Origin: Spirosoma fluviale
GTDB taxonomy: Bacteria; Bacteroidota; Bacteroidia; Cytophagales; Spirosomataceae
DNA: 64,000 nucleotides
NCBI GenBank assembly: GCA_945901025.1
Contig: CAMDJW010000009.1
Coordinates: 1-64,000 of the forward strand
Direction of reading: 5' to 3'
Numbering within the stretch: position 1 is the first letter of the stretch; each line of letters opens with the position of its first letter. The notes beneath the pieces were generated by a model. That model was given only the letters and a program-made list of their open reading frames with translations. It had not been told where the DNA came from and ran no database searches. The position numbers and the translations under genes are program-made. Below are positions 3,628 through 16,124 of this stretch, piece after piece.

Positions 3628-5754
3628 CTATTTCAAAAGCTTTGCTTTTAAATAATTTGCAGTTGCATTAAATACTTTCAATGTGTTTGTAAATTTAAAC
3701 CAATGATTTGTATCGTCCACAATGACCATGGTCTCCACAGATACTTTACGTTTCATTAATCGGTTCACTAGGTCAACACTCTGATTAAATGAAACATTGC
3801 GATCATCATCCGCATGAATAATGAATACCGGAGATGTCCATGTACTTATCGAAGAAACCGGAGAAGATCTAAAAGACAAACTAGCTGCCCATTCAGCATC
3901 TGGGGCTTTATGAAATTCATCCGCCAATGGTTCCGCTTTTAATTGATTTGCCCAGTCATGCACCCCATGAATATCAACACCCGCCGCAAATAATTTTGAA
4001 TCCCTAGCTAATCCTAAAGCTGTCAAATAACCTCCATAAGAGCCTCCATAAATACCTATTTTCTTCGCATCCACAAAGGATTGAGTGGCTAACCACTCGC
4101 CCGCCGCCTTAATATCCAAATATTCTGAAGCACCTAAATGCCCGGCAGATTTAGGATGTTGAAATTCATAGCCATACCCGATGCCCAATCTATAATTCAC
4201 AGATAATACAACAAAACCAAGGTTGGCTAAATACTGATTCAATGCATACACATTGGCATAATAATCAGAATAATGCCAACCTAAAAGCATTTGCCTTGGA
4301 GGGCCGCCATGCACAAAAATAATAGCTGGTTTTTTCTGTTTACCATTTGAATTATCAAAAATCTGAGCATGTATAGATAAGCCATCCAAAGACTTATATA
4401 TTACTTGCTTAGGTTCAATCAGTGATTTTTCAGGATATTCAGCTGGGAATAGTGAAGCTGTTAATGATTTTTCTGAGCCAGCATCCGATTTGAAAATTAC
4501 CTGAGGTGCTTTTTGGAAAGTAGAACCCATGTAAACAATCCCCATGTTATTTGCCAAAGCCAATGCAGTCCATTCATTGCCATTTCCTGGCGTTAATATT
4601 TTCATATCAGCCTTGTCAACAGACACCTGAAGAATATGTCTTCTATCCTTATCCAAAGCATCAGGGCCAGTATTAACATCGCATAAAAGATTTTTTCCAT
4701 CCAAACTTAAACTTACATGCTCAACCATAAATTCACCGGGGGTCAATAACAGAGGCGAGCCACCTGAGGGAGTAATGGAATATAAATGAGGCCAACCATC
4801 ATGATAGGAAGTAAATGTGATGACATTATCAGTAGCCCAGAATAAATTTGCGCCTCCATGTGTTGTTGGGAAAGACCCTCGATTAGTTTTAGGAGCCTCC
4901 CAAACTAATTTAGAATTCTCACCTGTTACAGAAGCAGTACGAATGCTCCAAAAAACTTTTTTTCTTTGAGTCAATGAATCTGACTGGCCACCCAAAGCAA
5001 GTGTACGAATAAAGACTATGCTTTTCCCATCTGGCGACCAACGAGGACTCATGTCTTTTGCAAATGAAGGATCAATCCATTGGATTTGATTATTCCCGAT
5101 CGTCAATGATCCAATAAATGAATGGTCTCCCCTATTGGCCACAAAAACAACTTTTTAACCATCAGGTGACCACTTTAATTGAGATACAGTTCCCCTTGTT
5201 TTAAACAATTTCACAGGAGCCTCTAAAAAGTCCTCATTTTTATTGGTATCCAACTTGCAAATCCATGGTTGGCCTTCTTTAATGTAGGCAACTACATCAT
5301 TTTTAGGAGAAATTACAGGTTCATCACCTTCTGAAATAATCCGAATGGGCCCCCCTGTAAAAGCTATTTGCATCACACGAACTGTCTGAGGCTCAAGATT
5401 ACCGTTTGGATTAATAGGTTTTAAATGATCAAAATTAGCGCCATGATCTCCTCCACGCACAAACAAAACCCATTTTCCATCATCTGAAATAGATATTGAT
5501 GTTAACTCTTGCCCATCATCTTCATAAAATTAAGTTAATTTTCGAGCCTCAAAACTTGGCCCTTCAGCCACATAAATATTACGGATTCCTTTTTCATCCA
5601 TGGCCCAAGCAATCTTATTACCTTTATTGGATCGGACTAATTCTGTAGGAAATGGATGTGATTTAATGGCCTCAAAAGTGAAGTTTTGAGCCTGACTAAA
5701 TCCCTTAATTACAAACAATGCAATGATTAAAATGGATGAAAAGAAACGTAGCAT
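3628..5754 (-). pseudogene. S9 family peptidase (prolyl oligopeptidase/DPP-type), two nonsense codons
   Basis: One reading frame of 709 codons is interrupted only by two in-frame TAA codons: codon 75 (5530-5532) and codon 200 (5155-5157). Read through, it gives an N-terminal signal peptide (to about GFSQA), a WSPDG-type beta-propeller, and an alpha/beta-hydrolase domain with Ser572 in GGSYGG, Asp about 650 in HADDDRNV and His684 in DDTNHWF. The family consists of exported serine peptidases that cut after proline or clear dipeptides. Both stops fall in conserved propeller sequence (after ARKLT, and inside the repeat WSPDG-stop-KVVFVANRGD), so each looks like a single-base change. There is no frameshift and the catalytic residues are intact: a very recent pseudogene, or a sequencing error. 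The larger downstream piece could start at 5142 only from GTG and lacks a signal peptide. Confidence 0.9.
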
Positions 5755-5919
5755 GATAATTAATTTAAAATGGATTTAGAAATTTATTTAAATTTATGTT
5801 AATACTTTTAAATTTCATAATTGATTTATTCATGTTTCAGTTCAAATAATTGACAAAAATCATGATAAACTTCCAAGCATAATTTTATAAATTCGCTTCC
5901 AAATTTAAAAATATTTACA

Positions 5920-6705
5920 TTGATCTACAGTACCGTCATCCTAGAGGAGATCTTACGATTTGCAAATCCAACAGAAAGCGTTTGGATAGAATCTAAATCG
6001 AAAGGAAATGCCAAAGAACTCGCTTTAGCATTTGTCATGGCGCCTAGATTTATTTCAAAAACTCAGATAATTAACTCATTAAATGTCATTGACGGTTGGT
6101 CCTGGCAGGATTATACCCTAGATAAATTAGTTCGCATTTATATCATCTGCTTGATATCTGAGAAAGATGGTACGGACCAACTCAATTTATTGTTTGACAC
6201 AGCTGAAATTAATGAAGCAGTTGCCTTGCATGCTGCACTACCCGCGTTAAAAAATCCAGACCAATTTTTATTAAGAGCAACAGATGCCGTAAGATCCAAT
6301 ATGGGCTCAGTGTTTGAATCTATTGCATTTGAAAATCCTTACCCAAGCCTGTATTTTTCGGAATTAGCCTGGAATCAAATGGTTTTAAAATGCATCTTCA
6401 ACGACAAAGCTATTCATCGAATTTATGGATTAGAAAACAGAGCAAACCAGGCCCTTGCAGATACCTTATCAGACTTTGCGCATGAGAGGTGGGCTGCAGG
6501 CAGACGAGTTCCATCCCAAGTATGGCGATTAGTTCCTAAGTTTATGAATGAAAATTTGCATCGCGATATTAAAAAATTAGAACAATCAGATAATCCTAGA
6601 GATATTCTGGCTGCACAATTGGTCATCAAAGAGATAGACCAACCCGGAAGTACAAAAGAGCAATGGAAAGAATTAGAATTGCCTGAACCTATATATCAAG
6701 CTTAA
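5920..6705 (+). CDS. eboA: EboA domain protein
   Basis: First gene of a six-gene ebo operon. The 261-aa protein is mostly helical and leucine/alanine-rich, with no enzyme motif that I can see, as expected for EboA. Identification rests partly on context: it is followed in order by EboB to EboF. Ebo genes were studied in cyanobacteria, where they are needed to get a scytonemin monomer to the periplasm; EboA has no assigned activity. The frame begins with TTG at 5920; the first in-frame ATG is about 40 codons in and would remove sequence that looks coding (ILEEILRFANPTESVWIESK), so TTG is preferred. It is separated by 4 bases from eboB. Confidence 0.8.
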   Translation: MIYSTVILEEILRFANPTESVWIESKSKGNAKELALAFVMAPRFISKTQIINSLNVIDGWSWQDYTLDKLVRIYIICLISEKDGTDQLNLLFDTAEINEAVALHAALPALKNPDQFLLRATDAVRSNMGSVFESIAFENPYPSLYFSELAWNQMVLKCIFNDKAIHRIYGLENRANQALADTLSDFAHERWAAGRRVPSQVWRLVPKFMNENLHRDIKKLEQSDNPRDILAAQLVIKEIDQPGSTKEQWKELELPEPIYQA

Positions 6706-6709
6706 AAAT

Positions 6710-7729
6710 ATGTGTCAAAACCCTCATCAAAAGGAAATAAATCCTTCACATTTTGAAGGATCAACGGAAGAAAAAGCAACAGCAAATGTGGTGGATCATG
6801 ATTTCATGAACTACACTCAGGGGATGAAATTTTTTGACCCTCATATGCACATGAGCTCGAGGACCACGGATGATTATCAAGCTTTAGCTGACGCAGGTGT
6901 GGTTGCACTGATTGAACCGGCTTTTTGGTTAGGCCAACCGAGAACTGGTTTAGCATCTTTCAAAGACTATTTTTCTAGCCTTGTTGGCTGGGAGAGATTC
7001 CGATCTTCCCAATTTGGCATCAAACATTATTGCACGATTGGTTTGAATTCTAGAGAAGCCAATAATGAAGCCCTTGCCGAACAAGTGATGGAAATACTTC
7101 CCTTATTTCTTCAAAAAGAAGGTGTAGTCGGGGTTGGTGAAATCGGCTTTGATGATCAAACAGCTGCTGAAGAAAAATATTACCGGGCCCAATTAGAAAT
7201 GGCTAAGGAAATGAACCTGCCAGTCCAAGTGCATACTCCCCATCGCGATAAGAAAAAAGGGACCGAACGAAGTATGGCCATTGCTTTAGAACATGGAATA
7301 GACCCAAAAATGGTTATTATTGATCATAATAATGAAGAAACCGTAAAGTCTGTTTTAGATCAAGGTTTTTACGCCGCTTTTACCATTTATCCTTTTACCA
7401 AAATGGGAAATGAACGTATGGTCGAAATTGTCAAAGAATACGGGCCTACTCGAATTATGGTCAATTCTGCTGCGGACTGGGGAATTTCAGATCCCTTGGC
7501 TATTCCAAAAACAGCCGCTTTGATGAAGATTAAAGGGATAGATGTAGAGATCATACGCCAAGTAACCTATCAAAATGCTTTGGACGCTTTTGCCCAAAGT
7601 GGACAAATCAATGAAAGTGATTTTATTCATGGCCTGGAAATTGATCAATCACAAAAATTCAATGGAAACACCGTACTCAGAGGAGGTCAAGCGCCACGAA
7701 TAAATAAAAACTCTATGATTATTCGTTAA
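6710..7729 (+). CDS. eboB: EboB, TatD-family metal hydrolase
   Basis: A 339-aa amidohydrolase-superfamily (TatD-like) TIM barrel. Metal-binding candidates are visible in order: FFDPHMHM (HxH), GVGEIGFD (Glu), VQVHTPH (His), IIDHNN (His) and NSAADWG (Asp). The N-terminal 35-40 residues before MNYTQGMKFFDPHMHM are variable and hydrophilic, so an internal start is possible. In ebo operons this is the predicted hydrolase, whose substrate is unknown. Its stop overlaps the eboC start (TAATG), implying coupled translation. Confidence 0.9.
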   Translation: MCQNPHQKEINPSHFEGSTEEKATANVVDHDFMNYTQGMKFFDPHMHMSSRTTDDYQALADAGVVALIEPAFWLGQPRTGLASFKDYFSSLVGWERFRSSQFGIKHYCTIGLNSREANNEALAEQVMEILPLFLQKEGVVGVGEIGFDDQTAAEEKYYRAQLEMAKEMNLPVQVHTPHRDKKKGTERSMAIALEHGIDPKMVIIDHNNEETVKSVLDQGFYAAFTIYPFTKMGNERMVEIVKEYGPTRIMVNSAADWGISDPLAIPKTAALMKIKGIDVEIIRQVTYQNALDAFAQSGQINESDFIHGLEIDQSQKFNGNTVLRGGQAPRINKNSMIIR

Positions 7730-8610
7730 TGAAAGCAAAAATCAGAGCCTTCATTGAACTAATGCGACCTGCGAATGTCATTACTTCTTTAACAGATGTT
7801 TTAGCTGGTATGTCCGTCGTAGGATTTTTGTTCAATATTATAGACATAAATTCAGTAGTGTTTTTAGGTATTTCAACCATGTGCTTGTATGCAGGTGGCG
7901 TTGTTTTCAATGATGTGTTTGACCATGACTTGGACAAAATTGAAAGGCCGGAACGCGCATTACCCAGTGGAAGAATATTGAAATCTGAGGCCATATTCGG
8001 TGGAATTTTATTGCTATTCATGGGTATATTTTGTGCATTTTGGCATAGCAAATTGAGCGGCTTTATTGCCATCATCATTAGCATTTGCGCTTTATTTTAC
8101 GATTGGAAAGGCAAGCATATGTCCATTTTCGGGCCGATCAATATGGGTTTATGTCGAGCCTTTAATTTGCTTTTAGGAATGAGCGTTTATGAAATAGGTG
8201 TTTTTACCTATGGTTATTTAATCCTAATCCCATTAATTTACATCGCAGCCATTACCCTAGTTTCAAGGGGTGAAGTACATGGAGGAACTCCTAAAACCCT
8301 ATTATTTGCATTATTTCTTTTTTTGTTGGTCCATATTTGCCAACTATATTTTGCTGATAAATTTGGACATTTATATCTAGCATTCCCTTTTATTGCCACT
8401 CACTTTTATTTAATTTTCAACAAATTAATGGTGGCCATAAAGAATCCAATAGGCCCCAATATCGGCAAAACAGTTAAAACTGGGGTTTTAACTTTAATTT
8501 TAATGAATGCAGCTTGGGTTAGTTTGAGTGGACAATGGGAAATGGCTATATTTGTTGTCCTGCTTTTACCCGTATCAATTCTATTAGGTAAAAAGTTTGC
8601 AGTTACGTAA
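7729..8610 (+). CDS. eboC: EboC, UbiA-family prenyltransferase
   Basis: A 293-aa integral membrane protein with about eight to nine membrane segments. The first Asp-rich UbiA motif is NDVFDHDLDKIERPERALPSG; the second region is YDWKGKH followed by GPINMGLCRAFNLLLG. UbiA proteins transfer prenyl groups to aromatic or other acceptors in the membrane. In the ebo system it is the likely step that puts a lipid tail or carrier on the metabolite; this is inferred from the family. It overlaps eboB by one base and is followed by eboD after 10 bases. Confidence 0.92.
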   Translation: MKAKIRAFIELMRPANVITSLTDVLAGMSVVGFLFNIIDINSVVFLGISTMCLYAGGVVFNDVFDHDLDKIERPERALPSGRILKSEAIFGGILLLFMGIFCAFWHSKLSGFIAIIISICALFYDWKGKHMSIFGPINMGLCRAFNLLLGMSVYEIGVFTYGYLILIPLIYIAAITLVSRGEVHGGTPKTLLFALFLFLLVHICQLYFADKFGHLYLAFPFIATHFYLIFNKLMVAIKNPIGPNIGKTVKTGVLTLILMNAAWVSLSGQWEMAIFVVLLLPVSILLGKKFAVT

Positions 8611-8620
8611 ATTTGAGTTC

Positions 8621-9766
8621 ATGCAATCTTTAAAACAAATATTTCAAGTCCCATTTCAATACGAAGTTTTTTTCACAAAAAGCTTGTTTGATACTGCAAA
8701 TACAATATTTGCAGATTTTATTCGCCATTTTGGCAACCCTGAATTTCAAAAAAGAATTTTATTTGTTGTGGACAAAGGGGTGGCCGACGCACATCCATAT
8801 CTGACAAATACTCTCATAAAATATTTTGATCATCATTCTGTAGCCAAATTATCACCTGAGATTTTAGTTTTACCTGGAGGAGAAAATTGCAAAAACGACC
8901 CTAGATTTTACGAAGAAGTAGTACGCGCGATTGATGAACATCGAATTGATCGTCACTCTTTTGTTGCCGCCATCGGTGGAGGTGCCTTTTTAGATATGTC
9001 AGGTTATGCTGCAGCTATTTCTCATCGTGGAGTTAAATTAATTCGCATCCCTACAACCGTATTGTCCCAAAATGATTCTGGGGTTGGCGTAAAAAATGGG
9101 GTTAATTATTTAGGTAAAAAGAACTTTCTTGGGACATTTGCTCCTGCAGTAGCTGTTTTTAATGATGTAGATTTTTTAACTACACTAATAGATCGAGATT
9201 GGAGATCAGGGATTGCAGAAGCTATTAAAGTAGCCTTAATTAAAGATCTATCATTTTTTACTTGGCTTGAAGAGCATGCAGATGACATGAACTCGCGGAA
9301 TGAATCTATCATGATGGAACAAATTTACCGTTGCGCCGATTTACACATGAAGCACATATCTTCCGGTGATCCATTTGAATTAGGTTCCGCTCGGCCCCTA
9401 GACTTTGGGCATTGGGCAGCACATAAATTAGAATATTTAAGCTCGTTTAGTATCCGTCATGGTGAGGCTGTTGCCATAGGCATCGCATTAGATTGTGCCT
9501 ATTCTTATTTAATTGGGAATATCTCAAAAGAAGATTTAGATCGAATTATTGGATTAATTAAAAAGCTTGGCTTTGATATTTATCATCCCGCGTTAGCTGA
9601 AAATGATAAAATTAATCTTTACAAAGGTTTACAGGAATTCCAGGAGCATCTTGGCGGCCAATTAACCATTACGCTTCTATTGGCCTTAGGAAAAGGAATC
9701 GAGGTGCATGAAATTGATTTTGAAATGGTCAAAAAATCGGTTGATTACTTAGCCAATCTTGCATAA
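8621..9766 (+). CDS. eboD: EboD, 3-dehydroquinate synthase-like sugar-phosphate cyclase
   Basis: A 381-aa protein of the sugar phosphate cyclase fold (DHQ synthase, EEVS, DOI synthase relatives). Visible are the NAD-binding GGGAFLDMSGYAAA, the RIPTTVLSQNDSGVGVKNGVN loop, SGIAEAIKVALIKD, and the metal-ligand histidines in FGHWAAHKLE and IRHGEAVAIGI. Canonical AroB has ASIGGK/NHPKGKN at the substrate loops; the different residues here suggest another substrate or product, so it should not be called aroB. The frame is open from a TTG at 8597 inside eboC, but the ATG at 8621 after the eboC stop is more plausible. Membership in the operon decides the name. Confidence 0.88.
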   Translation: MQSLKQIFQVPFQYEVFFTKSLFDTANTIFADFIRHFGNPEFQKRILFVVDKGVADAHPYLTNTLIKYFDHHSVAKLSPEILVLPGGENCKNDPRFYEEVVRAIDEHRIDRHSFVAAIGGGAFLDMSGYAAAISHRGVKLIRIPTTVLSQNDSGVGVKNGVNYLGKKNFLGTFAPAVAVFNDVDFLTTLIDRDWRSGIAEAIKVALIKDLSFFTWLEEHADDMNSRNESIMMEQIYRCADLHMKHISSGDPFELGSARPLDFGHWAAHKLEYLSSFSIRHGEAVAIGIALDCAYSYLIGNISKEDLDRIIGLIKKLGFDIYHPALAENDKINLYKGLQEFQEHLGGQLTITLLLALGKGIEVHEIDFEMVKKSVDYLANLA

Positions 9767-9769
9767 GCG

Positions 9770-10966
9770 ATGGAAACTAAACACGGTCATTTTAGCTATT
9801 GCAGTAATATTCACCCAGGAGAAATTTGGCATGAGCATTTTGAAGAATTAAAAAAAAATGTCCCACTGGTAAAAGCACAAATAGCCCCAAATGAAAAAAT
9901 GGGTTTGGGGTTACGATTTGCCAATCAAGCGAGTATTGATTTACAAAATCCTACTGAATTCAAAAATTTAAAAGATTGGCTACAAAAAGAAAATCTATAT
10001 GTGTTTACGTTAAATGGATTTCCTTACGGTGGTTTTCATAATACAATTGTCAAAGACGATGTGCACACCCCTGATTGGACTACACAAGATCGATATGATT
10101 ACACGCTAAGACTGGCTCATTTGTTGGCCAAACTTCTACCTACAAATTTAGAAGAAGGAGGAATTTCAACTTCTCCATTATCCTATAAATATTGGTGGAA
10201 AAATTCAGAAGAATTATCGAATGCTACCCATAAAGCCACACTTCATTTAATGGATCTAGTGGTTGAATTAGCTAAAATAGAGCAGGGAACTGGGAAATGG
10301 ATCCACATTGATATCGAACCTGAACCGGACGGAATTCTTGAAAATCACAAAGAATTTGTTGAATGGTACGAAAATACATTAATTCCCTTAGGCACTGAAT
10401 ATTTGCAAAATAAAGGGATTAACAGCTCTGTGGATTTAATCAAAAGGCATATTCAGCTGTGTTTTGATATTTGTCATTTTGGGGTAAGTTATGATAGTCC
10501 TGCCATATGCATTGAAGAATTAAATCAAAAAGGAATTGGCGTAGGTAAGATTCAAATTAGTTCCGCTTTGCGTGTGGATTTAAGAACTAATCCTCAAGAA
10601 AAAATAGATGCGCTTAGAAAATACCATGAGCCTGTTTACTTGCACCAAGTAAAAGCTTTGTTGGCAAATGGCGAATACCTTCAATATAAAGACTTGGATG
10701 AGGCGATCCAGGATTATTCAGCAGACCATTTTGTCGAATGGAGAATCCACTTTCATGTCCCGCTTTTCCTAGCGAATTATGGCTTATTGGGCTCTACACA
10801 AAAAGAAATCATAGAGACATTAGAGGTTCAAAAAGCAAAGCCATTTACACGTCATTTAGAAATAGAAACCTATACTTGGGCCGTTTTACCTACCGAGTTT
10901 CAAGCGCCTATTCATGAGTCCATCGCTCGAGAAATTAGTTGGGTGAAAGCCATTTTAAATGATTAA
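9770..10966 (+). CDS. eboE: EboE, xylose-isomerase-like TIM barrel
   Basis: A 398-aa AP-endonuclease-2/xylose-isomerase-like TIM barrel, annotated in databases as metabolite traffic protein EboE. Family-like features are SYCSNIHPGEIW at the N-terminus, TLNGFPYGGFH, HIDIEPEPDG (a likely metal-binding Glu), CFDICHFGVSYD (Asp/His pair) and a C-terminal HLEIETYTWAVLP. The activity is unknown; the fold suggests isomerisation or epimerisation of a polyol or sugar-like compound, which fits with an upstream sugar phosphate cyclase. It starts 3 bases after eboD and ends 2 bases before eboF, so the block is one transcript. Confidence 0.9.
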   Translation: METKHGHFSYCSNIHPGEIWHEHFEELKKNVPLVKAQIAPNEKMGLGLRFANQASIDLQNPTEFKNLKDWLQKENLYVFTLNGFPYGGFHNTIVKDDVHTPDWTTQDRYDYTLRLAHLLAKLLPTNLEEGGISTSPLSYKYWWKNSEELSNATHKATLHLMDLVVELAKIEQGTGKWIHIDIEPEPDGILENHKEFVEWYENTLIPLGTEYLQNKGINSSVDLIKRHIQLCFDICHFGVSYDSPAICIEELNQKGIGVGKIQISSALRVDLRTNPQEKIDALRKYHEPVYLHQVKALLANGEYLQYKDLDEAIQDYSADHFVEWRIHFHVPLFLANYGLLGSTQKEIIETLEVQKAKPFTRHLEIETYTWAVLPTEFQAPIHESIAREISWVKAILND

Positions 10967-10968
10967 CG

Positions 10969-12330
10969 ATGCAAAAAACAGTTGTCATAGATATCGTTGG
11001 GCTTTCTGAAAGCATTATTTCAGAACATACCCCCTATTTAAAATCCTATATTGAGAAAAACCACTTAAGTAAAATTAAGCCGATTTTGCCAGCAGTCACA
11101 ACCTCCTCACAAAGCTGTTATGTCACGGGGAAATATCCAACGGATCATGGAATTGTGGGAAATGGCTGGTATGATCGCACAGATGCAGAAGTGAAATTCT
11201 GGAAGCAATCGAATCATTTAGTTGGCTCTCCAAAAATATGGGATGAGGCCAAGAAAAAGGACCCTGATTTTACCTGTGCCAAAATGTTTTGGTGGTATAA
11301 TATGTATTCCAGTGCAGACTATTCTGTCACTCCTCGGCCTCAATACCATGCTGACGGAGTAAAAGCCCCTGATTGCTATTCAAATCCTCCTGAATTAAGA
11401 GATGAATTACAAGATGCCTTAGGCACATTTCCCTTGTTTAACTTTTGGGGTCCTAATGCCAACATAAAATCCACACAATGGATTGCGGATGCATCTATTT
11501 GGGTAGACAAAAAATACAACCCAACGCTCAATTTAATATACCTCCCTCATCTTGATTATTGCCTTCAAAAATTTGGAGTTGATTTTACTAAAATATCGAA
11601 GGAATTAGCGGAAATTGATCGAGTAATCCAACAATTAATCGAACATTTTGAGTCGACAAATGCCCACATCATTTTGTTATCGGAATATGGTATCAATAAT
11701 GTTTCTGAACCGATTCATATCAATCGGATTTTAAGAGAGCATGATTGCCTAGCGATTCGTGAGGAGCAGGGATTAGAGTTATTAGATGCAGGGGCAAGCA
11801 AAGCCTTCGCTGTTTCTGACCATCAAATTGCGCATATTTATGTAAAAAATGGGGAGCATAAGAAGGAGGTAAAAAAGATATTGGAGGCTATTCCTGGTGT
11901 AGCCAAAGTATTAGACTCAAAAGAAATAGAGTCCCATCATTTACATCATGAAAGAACAGGTGATTTTGTTTTGATTGCGGATACCGACAAATGGTTCACT
12001 TATTACTATTGGCTGAATGATGCAAAGGCACCAGACTTTGCACGATGTGTAGATATATTTAAAAAACCTGGCTACGACCCAGCTGAAATGTTTATGGACC
12101 CTAAAAATCCATTCATCAAACTGAGAGCTGGATATAAATTGGCCCGAAAACTAACGGGATTCAGGTATTTAATGGATGTCATTCCTTTGGATGCCACCTT
12201 AGTGAAAGGATCCCATGGAAGTCCGTTTTGTGATAAACAATTTTACCCTGTTTTTATCTCTAACCAAGTGACAAAATCAGAACTTGAACCCACGGACGTC
12301 TACAAATTGATCTTAAATTCTATTTTCTAA
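10969..12330 (+). CDS. eboF: EboF, alkaline phosphatase/phosphodiesterase family protein
   Basis: A 453-aa nucleotide pyrophosphatase/phosphodiesterase-superfamily protein. VVIDIVGLSE near the N-terminus supplies the first metal aspartate; the nucleophile region is LPAVTTSSQSCYVTGKYPTDHG; later metal ligands are probably in LPHLDYC, LLSEYG and KGSHG. No signal peptide is seen, so it should act in the cytoplasm. In the ebo pathway it could remove or exchange a phosphoryl group on the intermediate (inference). It ends the operon: the next gene starts 37 bases later with its own signal peptide and unrelated function. Confidence 0.9.
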   Translation: MQKTVVIDIVGLSESIISEHTPYLKSYIEKNHLSKIKPILPAVTTSSQSCYVTGKYPTDHGIVGNGWYDRTDAEVKFWKQSNHLVGSPKIWDEAKKKDPDFTCAKMFWWYNMYSSADYSVTPRPQYHADGVKAPDCYSNPPELRDELQDALGTFPLFNFWGPNANIKSTQWIADASIWVDKKYNPTLNLIYLPHLDYCLQKFGVDFTKISKELAEIDRVIQQLIEHFESTNAHIILLSEYGINNVSEPIHINRILREHDCLAIREEQGLELLDAGASKAFAVSDHQIAHIYVKNGEHKKEVKKILEAIPGVAKVLDSKEIESHHLHHERTGDFVLIADTDKWFTYYYWLNDAKAPDFARCVDIFKKPGYDPAEMFMDPKNPFIKLRAGYKLARKLTGFRYLMDVIPLDATLVKGSHGSPFCDKQFYPVFISNQVTKSELEPTDVYKLILNSIF

Positions 12331-12367: not shown

Positions 12368-12730
12368 ATGAAAAAATTAATTACTTCATTTGCTATCGTA
12401 GCAACATTAATGGGTTTTTCAACTCAAGTATCCGCTCAGGATTTCAATCCACAAGCGATGGTTCAGCGTCAGATCGACCGCATGGAAACTGAATTAACTT
12501 TATCTAAGGATCAAATCAAAAAAATTGAGCCATTGGTAATGGTAAGAATGGAAAAAATGATGGAATTCCGCCAAGCAGGTATGGAAAGAGAAGCGATGCA
12601 AGCTGAGATGAAAAAATTGAATGATGCTCAATTAGAGTCTCTTAAGGCAATTTTAACTCCCGAGCAACTAGAGAAATACAAGACGATGCAAGCTGCACAG
12701 CGGCAAGGTGGCGGAGGTCCTAGAAACTAG
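12368..12730 (+). CDS. Spy/CpxP-like periplasmic protein
   Basis: A 120-aa protein with a clear signal peptide (MKKLITSFAIVATLMGFSTQVSAQ, about 24 residues) and a helical mature part rich in Met, Gln, Glu and Lys. The motifs LTLSKDQIKKIEPL and LTPEQLEKYKTM are the LTxxQ-type repeats typical of the Spy/CpxP envelope-stress family, although the primary similarity is short. The tail is RQGGGGPRN. A role as a small periplasmic chaperone or metal/stress protein is inferred. It lies between the ebo operon and the sugar locus and may belong to neither. Confidence 0.7.
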   Translation: MKKLITSFAIVATLMGFSTQVSAQDFNPQAMVQRQIDRMETELTLSKDQIKKIEPLVMVRMEKMMEFRQAGMEREAMQAEMKKLNDAQLESLKAILTPEQLEKYKTMQAAQRQGGGGPRN

Positions 12731-12747
12731 TCCCAATAACAATACCT

Positions 12748-13842
12748 ATGATAAAGCACCTATTTGTTTGGATAGGGTTGTTTTGTATACCCTTTATTTT
12801 TCATGCTAAACCACTCCGAGTGGGTATAGCCGGAATGACCCATGACCATGTGGGACAGGTTTTTAGTACCATTAAAAAAGCACAGCAAGATGTAGTGATT
12901 GTGGGTTTTGCTGAACCTAACAAAGAATATGCTTTGTCCTTGCTAAAAAGTCAAAATCTTCCAGATTCACTTTGGTTTCCTACCTTAGAGGCTTTAATAG
13001 CGAAAACAAAGCCCGAGGCAATTGCTGCCTTTAATAGTATTTATGACCATTTGGAGGTGGTTAAAGTTTGTGCTCCCAAAGGAATCCATGTGGTGGTTGA
13101 AAAGCCTTTAGCGGTCAACATGAATCATTTAAACCAAATGAAAGCCCTAGTGGACCAATATAAAATTCATCTTTTAACCAATTTTGAAACCACTTGGTAT
13201 TCATCTCATGCCAAGATGTGGCAAATGGTTAAGGAAGAAAAGTCTCTAGGTACGATTAGAAAAGTTGTCATAATGGATGGACATCGTGGACCCAAGGAAA
13301 TTGACTGTTCCCCCGAGTTTCTAAATTGGTTAACCGACCCGATCAAAAATGGAGGAGGTGCTATTATCGATTTTGGGTGTTATGGGGCCAATATCATGAC
13401 TTGGTTAATGGATGGAAAAAGGCCTATTTCGGTAACAGCTGTAACCCAACAATTAAAACCCGATTTATACCCAAATGTAGACGACGAAGCCACAATCATT
13501 TTAACTTATCCAGATTGTCAAGCGATCATTCAGGCCTCATGGAATTGGCCATTTGACCGAAAAGACACCGAGATCTATGGGACCAAAGGAATTTTAGTAG
13601 CCAATAAAAACAAGAAAATGAGGTATGTGAACGGAGATCGATATGGTAAAGAAAGCATGATTGACTTAAGTCCTTTGCCACATGAAGTGTCCAATGTATT
13701 TCCTTATTTGTCTGCCGTGCTACAAGGAAGGATTAAACCCAAAATGGATTTATCTTCATTTGAAATCAATCAAGTAGTCGTAGAAATATTAGAAGCGGCA
13801 CGGGAATCTGCAAAAACAGGTAAAAAAGTAAATTTAAAATAA
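12748..13842 (+). CDS. exported Gfo/Idh/MocA-family oxidoreductase
   Basis: A 364-aa NAD(P)-dependent oxidoreductase of the Gfo/Idh/MocA family. An N-terminal hydrophobic signal (about residues 1-20) precedes the Rossmann fold (LRVGIAGMTHDH, about 24-35), and the family motif VVVEKPLA is present at about residues 114-121. A C-terminal alpha/beta domain follows, with GGAIIDFGCYGANIMTW. The presence of a signal peptide means the enzyme probably works outside the cytoplasm with a tightly bound cofactor, as in glucose-fructose oxidoreductase. The substrate is not predictable. It is followed by a sugar-phosphate-isomerase-like gene after 17 bases; such pairs are common in polyol and inositol catabolism. 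Confidence 0.85.
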   Translation: MIKHLFVWIGLFCIPFIFHAKPLRVGIAGMTHDHVGQVFSTIKKAQQDVVIVGFAEPNKEYALSLLKSQNLPDSLWFPTLEALIAKTKPEAIAAFNSIYDHLEVVKVCAPKGIHVVVEKPLAVNMNHLNQMKALVDQYKIHLLTNFETTWYSSHAKMWQMVKEEKSLGTIRKVVIMDGHRGPKEIDCSPEFLNWLTDPIKNGGGAIIDFGCYGANIMTWLMDGKRPISVTAVTQQLKPDLYPNVDDEATIILTYPDCQAIIQASWNWPFDRKDTEIYGTKGILVANKNKKMRYVNGDRYGKESMIDLSPLPHEVSNVFPYLSAVLQGRIKPKMDLSSFEINQVVVEILEAARESAKTGKKVNLK

Positions 13843-13859
13843 AAAATATCTTAATAAAT

Positions 13860-14720
13860 ATGAATGCTCTAATCAAAAAAATCTTAGTTACAACCAGTAT
13901 CATCTGCTTGTTTTTCAATTTAAATGCCCAAAAAAGCCCCTGCATTAATGGAGTTCCTTTAGGCATGGTTTCGTATACCTATCGACAAAGTCTTCAAAAG
14001 GATGTGGCTACCACCCTAGATTCATTGAAAATAATGAAGGTATATGACATGGAATTTTCTAGTTTGTTTGGTAAAAAAGCGACGGAAATCAGAAAGCTCT
14101 TAGATGAAAGAGGCATGTATTGTTCTTCCTTTGGCGTTAGTTATCAAGATGCATTAACGAAGGCCGACGAAGTAGCTTCTAATGCAAAGACTTTAGGTGC
14201 AAAATTTGTCCGAGTGGCTTGGATTCCCCATGAAGGTCCATTTACAAAGGAATTAGCTGACAAAACGATCACAGATTTTAGCATCATTGGAAAAAACTTA
14301 AAAGAAAATTATGGATTAGAATTTTGTTACCATAACCATGGTTTTGAATTTGCTCCTTATGAAGGGGGTACTTTTTTTGATTATATGGCTAAAAATACGG
14401 ATCCGAAATTTGTGAATTTTGAAATGGATATCTTATGGACGTTTTTTCCGGGAATTGATCCAGCCAAACTTTTAGAAAAATATCCAAATCGCTTTAAACT
14501 GATGCACGTAAAAGATTTAAAAAAGGGGGTTATAGGAAACTTGTCAGGAGGAACTTCCTCTGAAAATGATGTAGCCTTAGGAACGGGCCAATTAAACTTG
14601 CCGGCTATTATGAAAGCTGCAAAAAAGGCGAAGATCCAACATTATTATATAGAAGATGAGAGTTCGCTTCATGCAATACAAGTTCCAGAATCCATTAAAT
14701 ATTTACTGAGCATAAAATAG
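13860..14720 (+). CDS. exported sugar phosphate isomerase/epimerase-like TIM barrel
   Basis: A 286-aa xylose-isomerase-like TIM barrel with an N-terminal signal peptide (to about NLNA-QKS). Conserved stretches are VSYTYRQSL, LEFCYHNHGFEF (metal His/Glu region), NFEMDILWTFFPG, FKLMHVKDLKKG and a C-terminal HYYIEDESS. Proteins of this type act on free sugars or polyols and often sit next to Gfo/Idh/MocA oxidoreductases, as here. No substrate can be given. A 204-base non-coding gap follows (14721-14924) in which I see neither a gene nor a clear terminator. Confidence 0.85.
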   Translation: MNALIKKILVTTSIICLFFNLNAQKSPCINGVPLGMVSYTYRQSLQKDVATTLDSLKIMKVYDMEFSSLFGKKATEIRKLLDERGMYCSSFGVSYQDALTKADEVASNAKTLGAKFVRVAWIPHEGPFTKELADKTITDFSIIGKNLKENYGLEFCYHNHGFEFAPYEGGTFFDYMAKNTDPKFVNFEMDILWTFFPGIDPAKLLEKYPNRFKLMHVKDLKKGVIGNLSGGTSSENDVALGTGQLNLPAIMKAAKKAKIQHYYIEDESSLHAIQVPESIKYLLSIK

Positions 14721-14924
14721 AAATACTGCCTATCGGACTGGTGAAAAAATTACTTGGGATACAAAGAAAGGCTTATTTGATAAAAATCAGCTAATAATTT
14801 AATTAAGCCCAACTATCACAATGGATTTAGTTACCCGAAATTTTAAAAAACAAAATCAGTAACTTGAAGTTTTAATAAAGTTGGAAAATTTTCAAATTAA
14901 ATTATACCTGTTTAATTCCCAATT

Positions 14925-16124
14925 ATGCGAATATTAATTTTAAGCTTATTTACCTTATTCAGTACCCAAATTATCGCTCAGGCCGACTTTGAAAAAAAAT
15001 TACAAACCAAGTTAATCATGGCAGAAGATGGAGATATCATCAACATTGAAGCGGGTAACTTTGCATTAACTAAAAGTCTAAGCCTAGATGGTAAAAAGAA
15101 TATCACCATTCGAGGAAAAGGGATTAACAAAACGGTCCTAAACTTCAAAGCACAAACCCAAGGAGCTGAGGGAATCAGAATAACGAATTGTGAAAATATT
15201 ATTTTAGAAGATTTTACGGCAGAAGATTCCAAAGGAGATTTGATCAAAACCATGCATGTAAAAGGAATCACATTCCGAAGATTAAAGACGGCTTGGACAG
15301 GAAAACCCTCCCCTACAAATGGCAGTTACGGCTTGTACCCAGTACTTTGTGAAAAGGTATTGATTGACAGCTGTATTGCGATCGGTGCATCTGATGCTGG
15401 AATTTATGTAGGACAATCCAAATATATCACGGTTCGCAATTGCACAGCCTTCCAAAATGTGGCGGGCATTGAGATTGAAAATTCATTATATGCTGATGTG
15501 TATAATAATGTGGCAGAAGGAAATACTGGAGGTATTTTAGTTTTTGATTTACCGGATCTAATCCAAAAAAAGGGAGGGTTTGTACGCGTGTACAACAACT
15601 TAATTAAAGAAAATAATTTAGCCAATTTTGCACCCAAAGGTAATATTGTGGGAAATGTACCCAAAGGCACAGGAATGATGGTGTTGGCTACTAGCCAAGT
15701 TGAAATTTTTGATAATAAAATTCTAAATCATTCAACTGTGGGGGTCGCAATCATCAGCTACTTTATGACCGAGAAAAAAAATAAAGATAAAGGGTATTAC
15801 CCCTACCCCACTTCGATCAACATTCATGATAATTTATTTGAAAGAAAACCGCGTCGAGTGCCAATGGACAGCCGATTTGGTCAGTTGTATCGGGTGAAAT
15901 TAAAATTTGGCCGTAAGATACCACAGGTCATTTTCGATGGAATATTAGACCCTAAATTAGTGGGGACTGATGGTAAATATCTGCCTGAATATGCCATTTG
16001 TGTACGAAATAACATCAACCAAAGTACTTCATTTTTAGATGCTGATCATGACTTTAAAAATGTTTTAGTGGGTCCTGACTTATTTGAATGTTCACCCGTT
16101 TCGATCAAATCAAATCAGTTTTAA
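14925..16124 (+). CDS. secreted parallel beta-helix repeat protein
   Basis: A 399-aa protein with a short signal peptide (to about IIAQA) and a right-handed parallel beta-helix built from repeats such as NITIRGKG, GIRITNCENIILEDFTAED, AGIYVGQSKYITVRNCTAFQN and AGIEIENSLYADVYNNVAEGN. This matches the beta-helix family that is typically encoded next to an SO2930-type diheme cytochrome, which is the next gene. Its role is unknown; the beta-helix fold suggests polysaccharide binding or lyase/epimerase activity at the cell surface. It ends 4 bases before the cytochrome start. Confidence 0.85.
   Translation: MRILILSLFTLFSTQIIAQADFEKKLQTKLIMAEDGDIINIEAGNFALTKSLSLDGKKNITIRGKGINKTVLNFKAQTQGAEGIRITNCENIILEDFTAEDSKGDLIKTMHVKGITFRRLKTAWTGKPSPTNGSYGLYPVLCEKVLIDSCIAIGASDAGIYVGQSKYITVRNCTAFQNVAGIEIENSLYADVYNNVAEGNTGGILVFDLPDLIQKKGGFVRVYNNLIKENNLANFAPKGNIVGNVPKGTGMMVLATSQVEIFDNKILNHSTVGVAIISYFMTEKKNKDKGYYPYPTSINIHDNLFERKPRRVPMDSRFGQLYRVKLKFGRKIPQVIFDGILDPKLVGTDGKYLPEYAICVRNNINQSTSFLDADHDFKNVLVGPDLFECSPVSIKSNQF

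Follow-up and report, generated by a model that had tools for sequence, protein, structure and literature searches.

The ebo operon of Spirosoma fluviale and the replacement of its cyclase by an inositol-phosphate synthase paralogue in Actinomycetota

Which small molecule do the proteins of an ebo operon make, and what is it for? The question is raised here by a stretch of 64,000 nucleotides from Spirosoma fluviale (assembly GCA_945901025.1, contig CAMDJW010000009.1, positions 1 to 64,000; hereafter the window), which carries a complete eboA-eboF operon at 5920-12330, in the canonical A-B-C-D-E-F order and entirely on the + strand. From the comparisons below, we consider it reasonably probable that ebo is a pathway for a prenylated cyclitol of the inner membrane, needed to move other small metabolites into the periplasm. 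Relative to the literature searched, the new element is that EboD, the cyclase of the operon, is interchangeable in ebo clusters with a paralogue of inositol-phosphate synthase (IPS). The paralogue tied to ebo clusters is called ebo-type or cluster IPS in what follows.

The operon was named in 2016 by Yurchenko et al. (PMC5133447), who reported that ABCDEF is the ancestral gene order in Bacteroidetes and Cyanobacteria and proposed an isoprenoid-cyclitol product; neither the operon nor the prenyl-cyclitol idea is therefore new here. The prenylated cyclitol-like compound suggested for this locus by an earlier note, written from the letters of the window, had thus been published already, and what it gains is support from the exchange of the cyclase in Actinomycetota. 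In Nostoc, each ebo deletion tested (eboD was not among them) leaves the scytonemin monomer trapped in the cytoplasm; a prenylated lipid carrier was suggested (Klicki et al. 2018, PMC6282210). In vitro, homologues of EboC act as prenyltransferases and farnesylate quinolines (Amiri Moghaddam et al. 2022, PMC9235831), and an ebo operon is also described in Phycorickettsia (Sevcikova et al. 2018, PMC6092422).

The six genes of the window are the following:

eboA, 5920..6705, + strand: 261 residues; EboA domain
eboB, 6710..7729, + strand: 339 residues; TatD-like metal-dependent hydrolase superfamily
eboC, 7729..8610, + strand: 293 residues; UbiA-superfamily prenyltransferase, NDxxDxxxD at residue 61
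eboD, 8597..9766, + strand: 389 residues; sugar phosphate cyclase superfamily, likely true start ATG 8621
eboE, 9770..10966, + strand: 398 residues; xylose-isomerase-like TIM barrel
eboF, 10969..12330, + strand: 453 residues; type I phosphodiesterase / alkaline-phosphatase superfamily

In the proposed pathway, EboD would close a sugar phosphate, probably sedoheptulose 7-phosphate, to a cyclitol, which EboC would couple to a prenyl diphosphate. EboE (an isomerase/epimerase-like TIM barrel) and the hydrolase-like EboB may remodel the ring or its attachments, EboF would cut a phosphate bond, and EboA would be a helical accessory protein. The prenylated cyclitol would stay in or at the inner membrane and serve as carrier or cofactor for export. 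We infer the substrate, the order of the steps, the product and the carrier or cofactor role, and the export role itself would be carried over from Nostoc by analogy (PMC6282210).

Replacement of the cyclase

The EboD and IPS families are unrelated, and each forms a polyol ring by closure of a sugar phosphate. When plasmids were searched with the EboC protein, the matches in 15 of 34 records, all from Streptomyces, overlapped genes annotated as SCO3242 family prenyltransferase and as inositol-3-phosphate synthase. Four annotated Streptomyces plasmid regions hold, in this order, IPS, EboC (SCO3242 family), an isomerase, EboA, TatD, EboE and EboF. Among 14 plasmid regions, EboD occurs in seven and IPS in six (two of them unannotated and found by tblastn), while one (L089) has a lone eboE. 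The actinobacterial cluster thus resembles the operon of the window in its homologues of EboA, EboB, EboC, EboE and EboF in one gene run; it differs in lacking EboD and in having an IPS paralogue together with an additional xylose-isomerase-like protein.

Scanning genome contigs with an EboB alignment confirmed 588 places. Of these, the best 80, ranked by a Streptomyces EboB, were kept, and all are Actinomycetota by title. IPS is found in 61 of these 80 loci, with eboC downstream of it in 59 of the 61, and the full order IPS-C-isomerase-A-B-E-F is seen in 58. EboD was found in none of the 80 within the stretch examined. The isomerase is present in 75, EboC in 72, EboA and EboE in 79 each and EboF in 77.

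Genome-level tests covered 30 of the 80 loci, 20 with IPS at the locus and 10 without. No EboD above the model cut-off was found in any of these 30 genomes, six of which have a cyclase-superfamily relative at 208-232 bits. All 30 contain IPS, and 27 contain two or more. When the cluster IPS was used as query in 20 genomes, it gave no match in 19 of the 20 stretches that hold a higher-scoring IPS and 29% identity in the remaining one. By sequence, the cluster IPS differs from the housekeeping type.

The 19 loci without IPS comprise eight that are cut upstream by a contig end (L096, L097, L117, L130, L135, L157, L165 and L170), one with only partial eboE/eboF matches (L111) and ten complete-looking clusters. 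The ten were considered as counter-examples and not retained as such, as nine of their genomes carry an ebo-type IPS elsewhere, with 54-57% identity. This IPS lies in a second ebo cluster in five of the nine and in a partial second cluster on a short contig in G174; around those of G155, G169 and G170 no second ebo cluster was seen.

The association was seen again among 246 sampled Actinomycetota genomes. EboE occurs in 11 of them, and an IPS scoring at least 301 bits occurs in the same 11, with EboE 3.6-5.2 kb away, start to start, in each. The next-best IPS scores 226 bits, and none reaches 301 bits in the 235 genomes that lack EboE. One of the 11, G163 (Streptomyces scabiei), had been chosen as the centre of this sample. 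A second EboE lies 135 and 191 kb away in G163 and G305, respectively. The two EboE genes of G163 (C1:1874752 and 2013647) belong to one cluster with IPS and one without.

The exchange is not confined to Actinomycetota. In the Gemmatirosa kalamazoonensis plasmid (Gemmatimonadota), an IPS with 47% identity stands with eboC, eboF, eboB and eboE; EboA was not detected in this cluster.

The cluster gene has features of an IPS. Both IPS domains, PF07994 and PF01658, are matched in the cluster gene of L080, and the cluster IPS of L088 matches 1u1i with an E-value of 1.7e-66. Five lysines are kept in 76 of 76 ebo-type IPS, and four of them align with the catalytic lysines K274, K278, K306 and K367 of A. 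fulgidus IPS.

The IPS variant of ebo is undescribed in the open-access main texts searched, a search that did not cover figures and supplements, and the word 'inositol' is not used once in the main text of any of three ebo papers. Figure 3 of PMC9235831, which shows two Saccharomonospora clusters, may include this variant.

What the replacement says about the product

The replacement of EboD by IPS is best explained if the partner enzymes act on a cyclitol, because the swap takes place beside otherwise common partners, especially an EboC that keeps its motif. Two unrelated cyclases filling one slot therefore give independent support for a cyclitol that would be prenylated by EboC. The swap is weaker evidence on which cyclitol this is, because of the added isomerase, the phosphate on the IPS product and the related IPS-family enzyme 6k96, which is named a five-membered-cyclitol-phosphate synthase.

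A wider reading is put forward tentatively. Here, ebo would be a widespread prenyl-cyclitol membrane lipid pathway with an interchangeable ring-former, either EboD (Bacteroidota, Cyanobacteria, Deinococcota and Proteobacteria) or an IPS paralogue with isomerase (Actinomycetota and at least one Gemmatimonadota), and the lipid would be a general cofactor in the export of oxidatively matured metabolites. A non-orthologous cyclase replacement that is co-inherited with the cluster is an evolutionary argument for a cyclitol in the product, rather than one based on annotation. IPS, from a well-understood family, also provides a second starting enzyme with a testable substrate, and the search for the product becomes tractable in culturable Streptomyces and Cytophagales.

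Several points weigh against a prenylated cyclitol pathway of this kind. The product of IPS retains its phosphate, while that of sugar phosphate cyclases has lost it, and the IPS-type cluster has its extra isomerase in 75 of the best 80 of 588 loci; the two cluster types therefore need not make the same compound. The ten complete-looking clusters of the 80 have no adjacent IPS, and the tenth of their genomes (G165, locus L145) has a housekeeping IPS only and no ebo-type. G159 and G161 have a single IPS, apparently that of the cluster, so the cluster IPS might also feed the general inositol supply. In the 246-genome sample, the 301-bit threshold was chosen after the gap between 301 and 226 bits was visible, and the IPS scoring covered at most seven first-look candidates per genome. 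One plasmid has a lone eboE, and draft genomes without eboD are reported for Leeuwenhoekiella and two Planctomycetes (Yurchenko et al., PMC5133447). In Nostoc, a lipid-linked monomer was not seen (PMC6282210). The EboC assays used 14 aromatic acceptors, of which six were farnesylated, quinolines best, and cyclitols go unmentioned in the description of the assays (PMC9235831). Finally, the best PDB matches of EboD are dehydroquinate synthases (5eks, 165 bits), and the sedoheptulose-phosphate cyclase ValA (4p53) scores lower, at 126 bits; the substrate of EboD is therefore not settled by these matches.

EboD and the housekeeping dehydroquinate synthase

The genome encodes a separate, true AroB at C9:101837-102808, with 334 bits on the AroB model TIGR01357 (cut-off 305). 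Because of it, EboD as the only 3-dehydroquinate (DHQ) synthase of this genome was ruled out. EboD itself reaches 217 bits on TIGR01357, under the cut-off. The matches to NF004852, the model that EboD fits, listed over the 148 genomes described below fall into two groups, at 450 bits or more and at 193 bits or less. EboD is distinct from the housekeeping AroB both on model scores and when 12 EboD sequences are aligned with it. The operon call of the earlier note would have been weakened had EboD clustered with AroB in a phylogeny; by these scores the two are well apart, and EboD has its own clade in the published tree (PMC5133447).

Three positions that we take to be metal ligands are kept in EboD (E208, H272 and H288 in the window's copy). 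All 12 EboD differ from AroB at other positions: the N of LNFGH is replaced by D, a lysine by H, GHT by GHW and DKK by EHL. HMMER aligns this lysine of AroB with the adjacent methionine instead. For the sedoheptulose 7-phosphate cyclases (EEVS/EVS/DDGS), a 14-residue active-site fingerprint has been derived from the ValA structure (PMC4426668).

Co-occurrence of the six genes

The joint presence of the genes was followed in 148 genomes drawn from the window's order, the Cytophagales; as these genomes are related, the counts are not independent. EboE is present in 46. EboB relatives (E-value of 1e-40 or lower) and EboD above the NF004852 cut-off are found in exactly the same 46. EboA and EboC above its cut-off each occur in 44 of the 46 and in no other genome, and EboF with at least 418 bits occurs in 43 and never outside the 46 at that score. 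Looser thresholds bring in paralogues elsewhere, with the EboC model matching 130 genomes and the EboD model 132; weak EboF matches, of 36 bits or less, occur in four genomes outside the 46.

All six genes are present in 41 of the 46. EboA is missing in G017 and G141, EboC in G110, and EboF in G079, G082 and G141; in G082, EboC is below the cut-off and has internal stops. The completeness of G082 and G110 is 75% and 72%, and that of the other genomes with missing ebo genes 94-95%.

The genes lie within 25 kb in 20 of the 46 genomes. In four they share one contig over distances, in linear coordinates, of 100 kb to 6.7 Mb. In the other 22 they fall on several contigs, and some of these separations may be assembly breaks. 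In the one-contig genome G004, they are scattered across 1.5 Mb. Transfer as a linked operon cannot alone account for this co-occurrence. As the genes co-occur even when scattered, the Ebo proteins most likely function together. The co-occurrence outside this genome, on which the operon call of the earlier note leaned, is seen in 46 of 148 relatives.

Sequence and predicted structure of EboA, EboB, EboC and EboE

EboA is predicted to be all-helical with a confident model (predicted local distance difference test score 95). In 44 aligned copies, the charged residues R72, R125, K157, R174, E189, R190 and R195 are invariant. The model has no PDB match at an E-value of 0.001 or lower; the best is 0.14, and helical-repeat proteins account for several of the 50 top-ranking ones. 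Neither the published idea of a tetratricopeptide repeat nor another specific fold is therefore supported by the model.

Many acidic and histidine residues are invariant in EboB and in EboE, and the NDxxDxxxD motif of EboC is kept in 96 of 96 copies of at least 250 residues, from EboD-type and IPS-type clusters alike; in the window it reads NDVFDHDLD at residue 61, an Asp-rich prenyltransferase motif. The EboE model has 75 PDB matches at an E-value of 0.001 or lower. The 50 listed belong by title to the xylose-isomerase-like superfamily, including sugar epimerases and the inosose isomerase IolI (1i60). With template modelling scores of at most 0.53 by query length, this predicted fold resemblance points to no specific reaction.

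Alternative explanations

It is conceivable, though unlikely, that the Ebo product is a prenylated aromatic of the quinoline or phenol type rather than a cyclitol, with EboD providing a dehydroquinate-like precursor. The EboC homologue Ubi-297 does farnesylate 8-hydroxyquinoline-2-carboxylate and quinaldic acid; it rejected phenols and catechols, and the panel held aromatic acceptors only (PMC9235831). The sequence of EboD is nearer to DHQ synthases than to ValA, but the genome already has a housekeeping AroB, and the EboD slot is taken by IPS in Actinomycetota. Inositol-phosphate synthase yields no aromatic precursor.

The trapping of the same intermediate in every Nostoc ebo deletion tested (PMC6282210) would also fit a quite different role, in which the Ebo proteins are the export machine itself, assembled around membrane-bound EboC, and their enzyme folds bind rather than catalyse. 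The predicted all-helical EboA, weakly similar to helical-repeat proteins, is in line with this. Such a machine would, however, hardly call for a prenyl-diphosphate motif in 96 of 96 EboC or for the many invariant acidic and histidine residues of EboB and EboE. EboC homologues are moreover catalytically active (PMC9235831), the genes are often scattered rather than one unit, and the cyclase can be replaced by an unrelated one; we regard this explanation as more doubtful still. Least likely of all is that the cluster IPS of Actinomycetota is an ordinary inositol supply gene that sits there by chance, unrelated to the role of EboD. G159 and G161, which apparently have no other IPS, speak for it. 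The presence of at least two IPS in 27 of 30 genomes argues against it, as do the failure of the cluster IPS query in 19 of 20 housekeeping-type stretches (29% identity in the other) and the occurrence of ebo-type IPS with EboE in 11 of 11 genomes, at a score reached in none of the 235 EboE-less ones.

The operon in its genome

The gene identities, order and coordinates first called from the window are correct by the open reading frame (ORF) list and by hidden Markov model (HMM) searches. Successive genes are separated by a 4-base gap, a 1-base overlap, a 14-base overlap as listed, a 3-base gap and a 2-base gap. EboD probably starts at ATG 8621 rather than TTG 8597, because the same-genus relative L061 aligns its start there; this leaves a 10-base gap after eboC. 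The HMM family scores are far above chance level: EboA has 157 bits on NF035938 (EboA_domain, cut-off 50), EboB 69 bits on PF01026, EboC 353.5 bits on NF035940 (cut-off 250, with the UbiA domain PF01040 also matched), EboD 559.5 bits on NF004852 (cut-off 333), EboE 488 bits on NF035939 (cut-off 250, without a Pfam match) and EboF 207 bits on PF01663. On the stricter EboA_family model NF035937, EboA is below the cut-off (176 against 320 bits), and NF004852 is named 3-dehydroquinate synthase by NCBI. None of 14 control genomes was above the cut-off for EboA, EboC, EboD or EboE.

By DNA search, the operon is single-copy in its genome (2.64 Mb in 32 contigs, 98.6% complete). It is an ordinary ABCDEF ebo operon, carried by a member of the family with a small genome. 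Compared with the ABCDEF type of Bacteroidota, Cyanobacteria, Leptospira and eustigmatophyte plastids (PMC5133447), the six genes, their order, orientation and near-zero spacing are alike. No structural difference was seen, apart from a small N-terminal extension of EboB, of about 38 residues, which is common to the same-family L062 and missing in the other 10 aligned homologues. Among plasmid records, the best named match is Aureibacter tunicatorum (Cytophagales).

The protein families are also those of the Nostoc punctiforme cluster, where EboC is likewise a membrane prenyltransferase; there, however, a neighbouring eboD points the opposite way, and scytonemin genes accompany the cluster (PMC6282210). 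A Pfam scan of 39 ORFs in the window gave no scytonemin genes, in agreement with what had been said of the window at the outset; no genome-wide search was made. According to the same paper, the EDB cluster of Pseudomonas fluorescens contains a full ebo cluster and differs in its nematode-repelling phenotype and extra genes (PMC6282210).

Neighbouring genes

Divergent from eboA lies a secreted-looking S9-family peptidase gene (3628-5757, - strand) that is apparently broken: reading from near 5757, two in-frame stops, one after residue 75 of the frame and one near 5157, divide it into separate open stretches. It appears to be a pseudogene or to contain sequencing errors. A Por secretion tail domain (PF18962) is also present in the window and, like the Aureibacter match, fits the assignment to Bacteroidota. 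Downstream of eboF, at 12368-16124, follow a 120-residue protein, an IolG-like Gfo/Idh/MocA protein, an IolE-like TIM barrel and a beta-helix protein; all but the last have starts that look signal-like by eye. These four genes are syntenic in the same-genus G086 (locus L061), with 67-71% identity. They were considered as members of the system and left out, because tblastn gave no match above 60 bits near eboE in any of 44 other Cytophagales loci, some of them cut by contig ends. A loose resemblance to them is seen in Ketogulonicigenium, where two Gfo/Idh/MocA genes and one for a sugar isomerase border the ebo cluster (L083, 4771-6817 and 13223-14134), the isomerase being 29% identical.

The 39 ORFs of the window that were scanned include no ScyD/ScyE, multicopper oxidase or ferritin-like partner. 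Such genes do occur beside some other clusters, and the proposed export role fits with them. A ScyD/ScyE-family gene and a multicopper oxidase gene flank the IPS-type ebo clusters of two Streptomyces plasmids (L088, 2174-3373 and 12155-13633; L090, 2188-3390 and 12906-14414), hinting at an exported, oxidised product. A large hypothetical protein and a PF12902 ferritin-like protein precede ebo in Aureibacter (Cytophagales; L092, 1046-4106) and in Mycetohabitans (Burkholderiales; L084, 3888-6970), and a common metabolite pathway that uses ebo is possible. The lone eboE of L089 (7968-9146) lies beside aromatic polyketide-type genes on a Streptomyces plasmid, which suggests an EboE relative recruited by itself.

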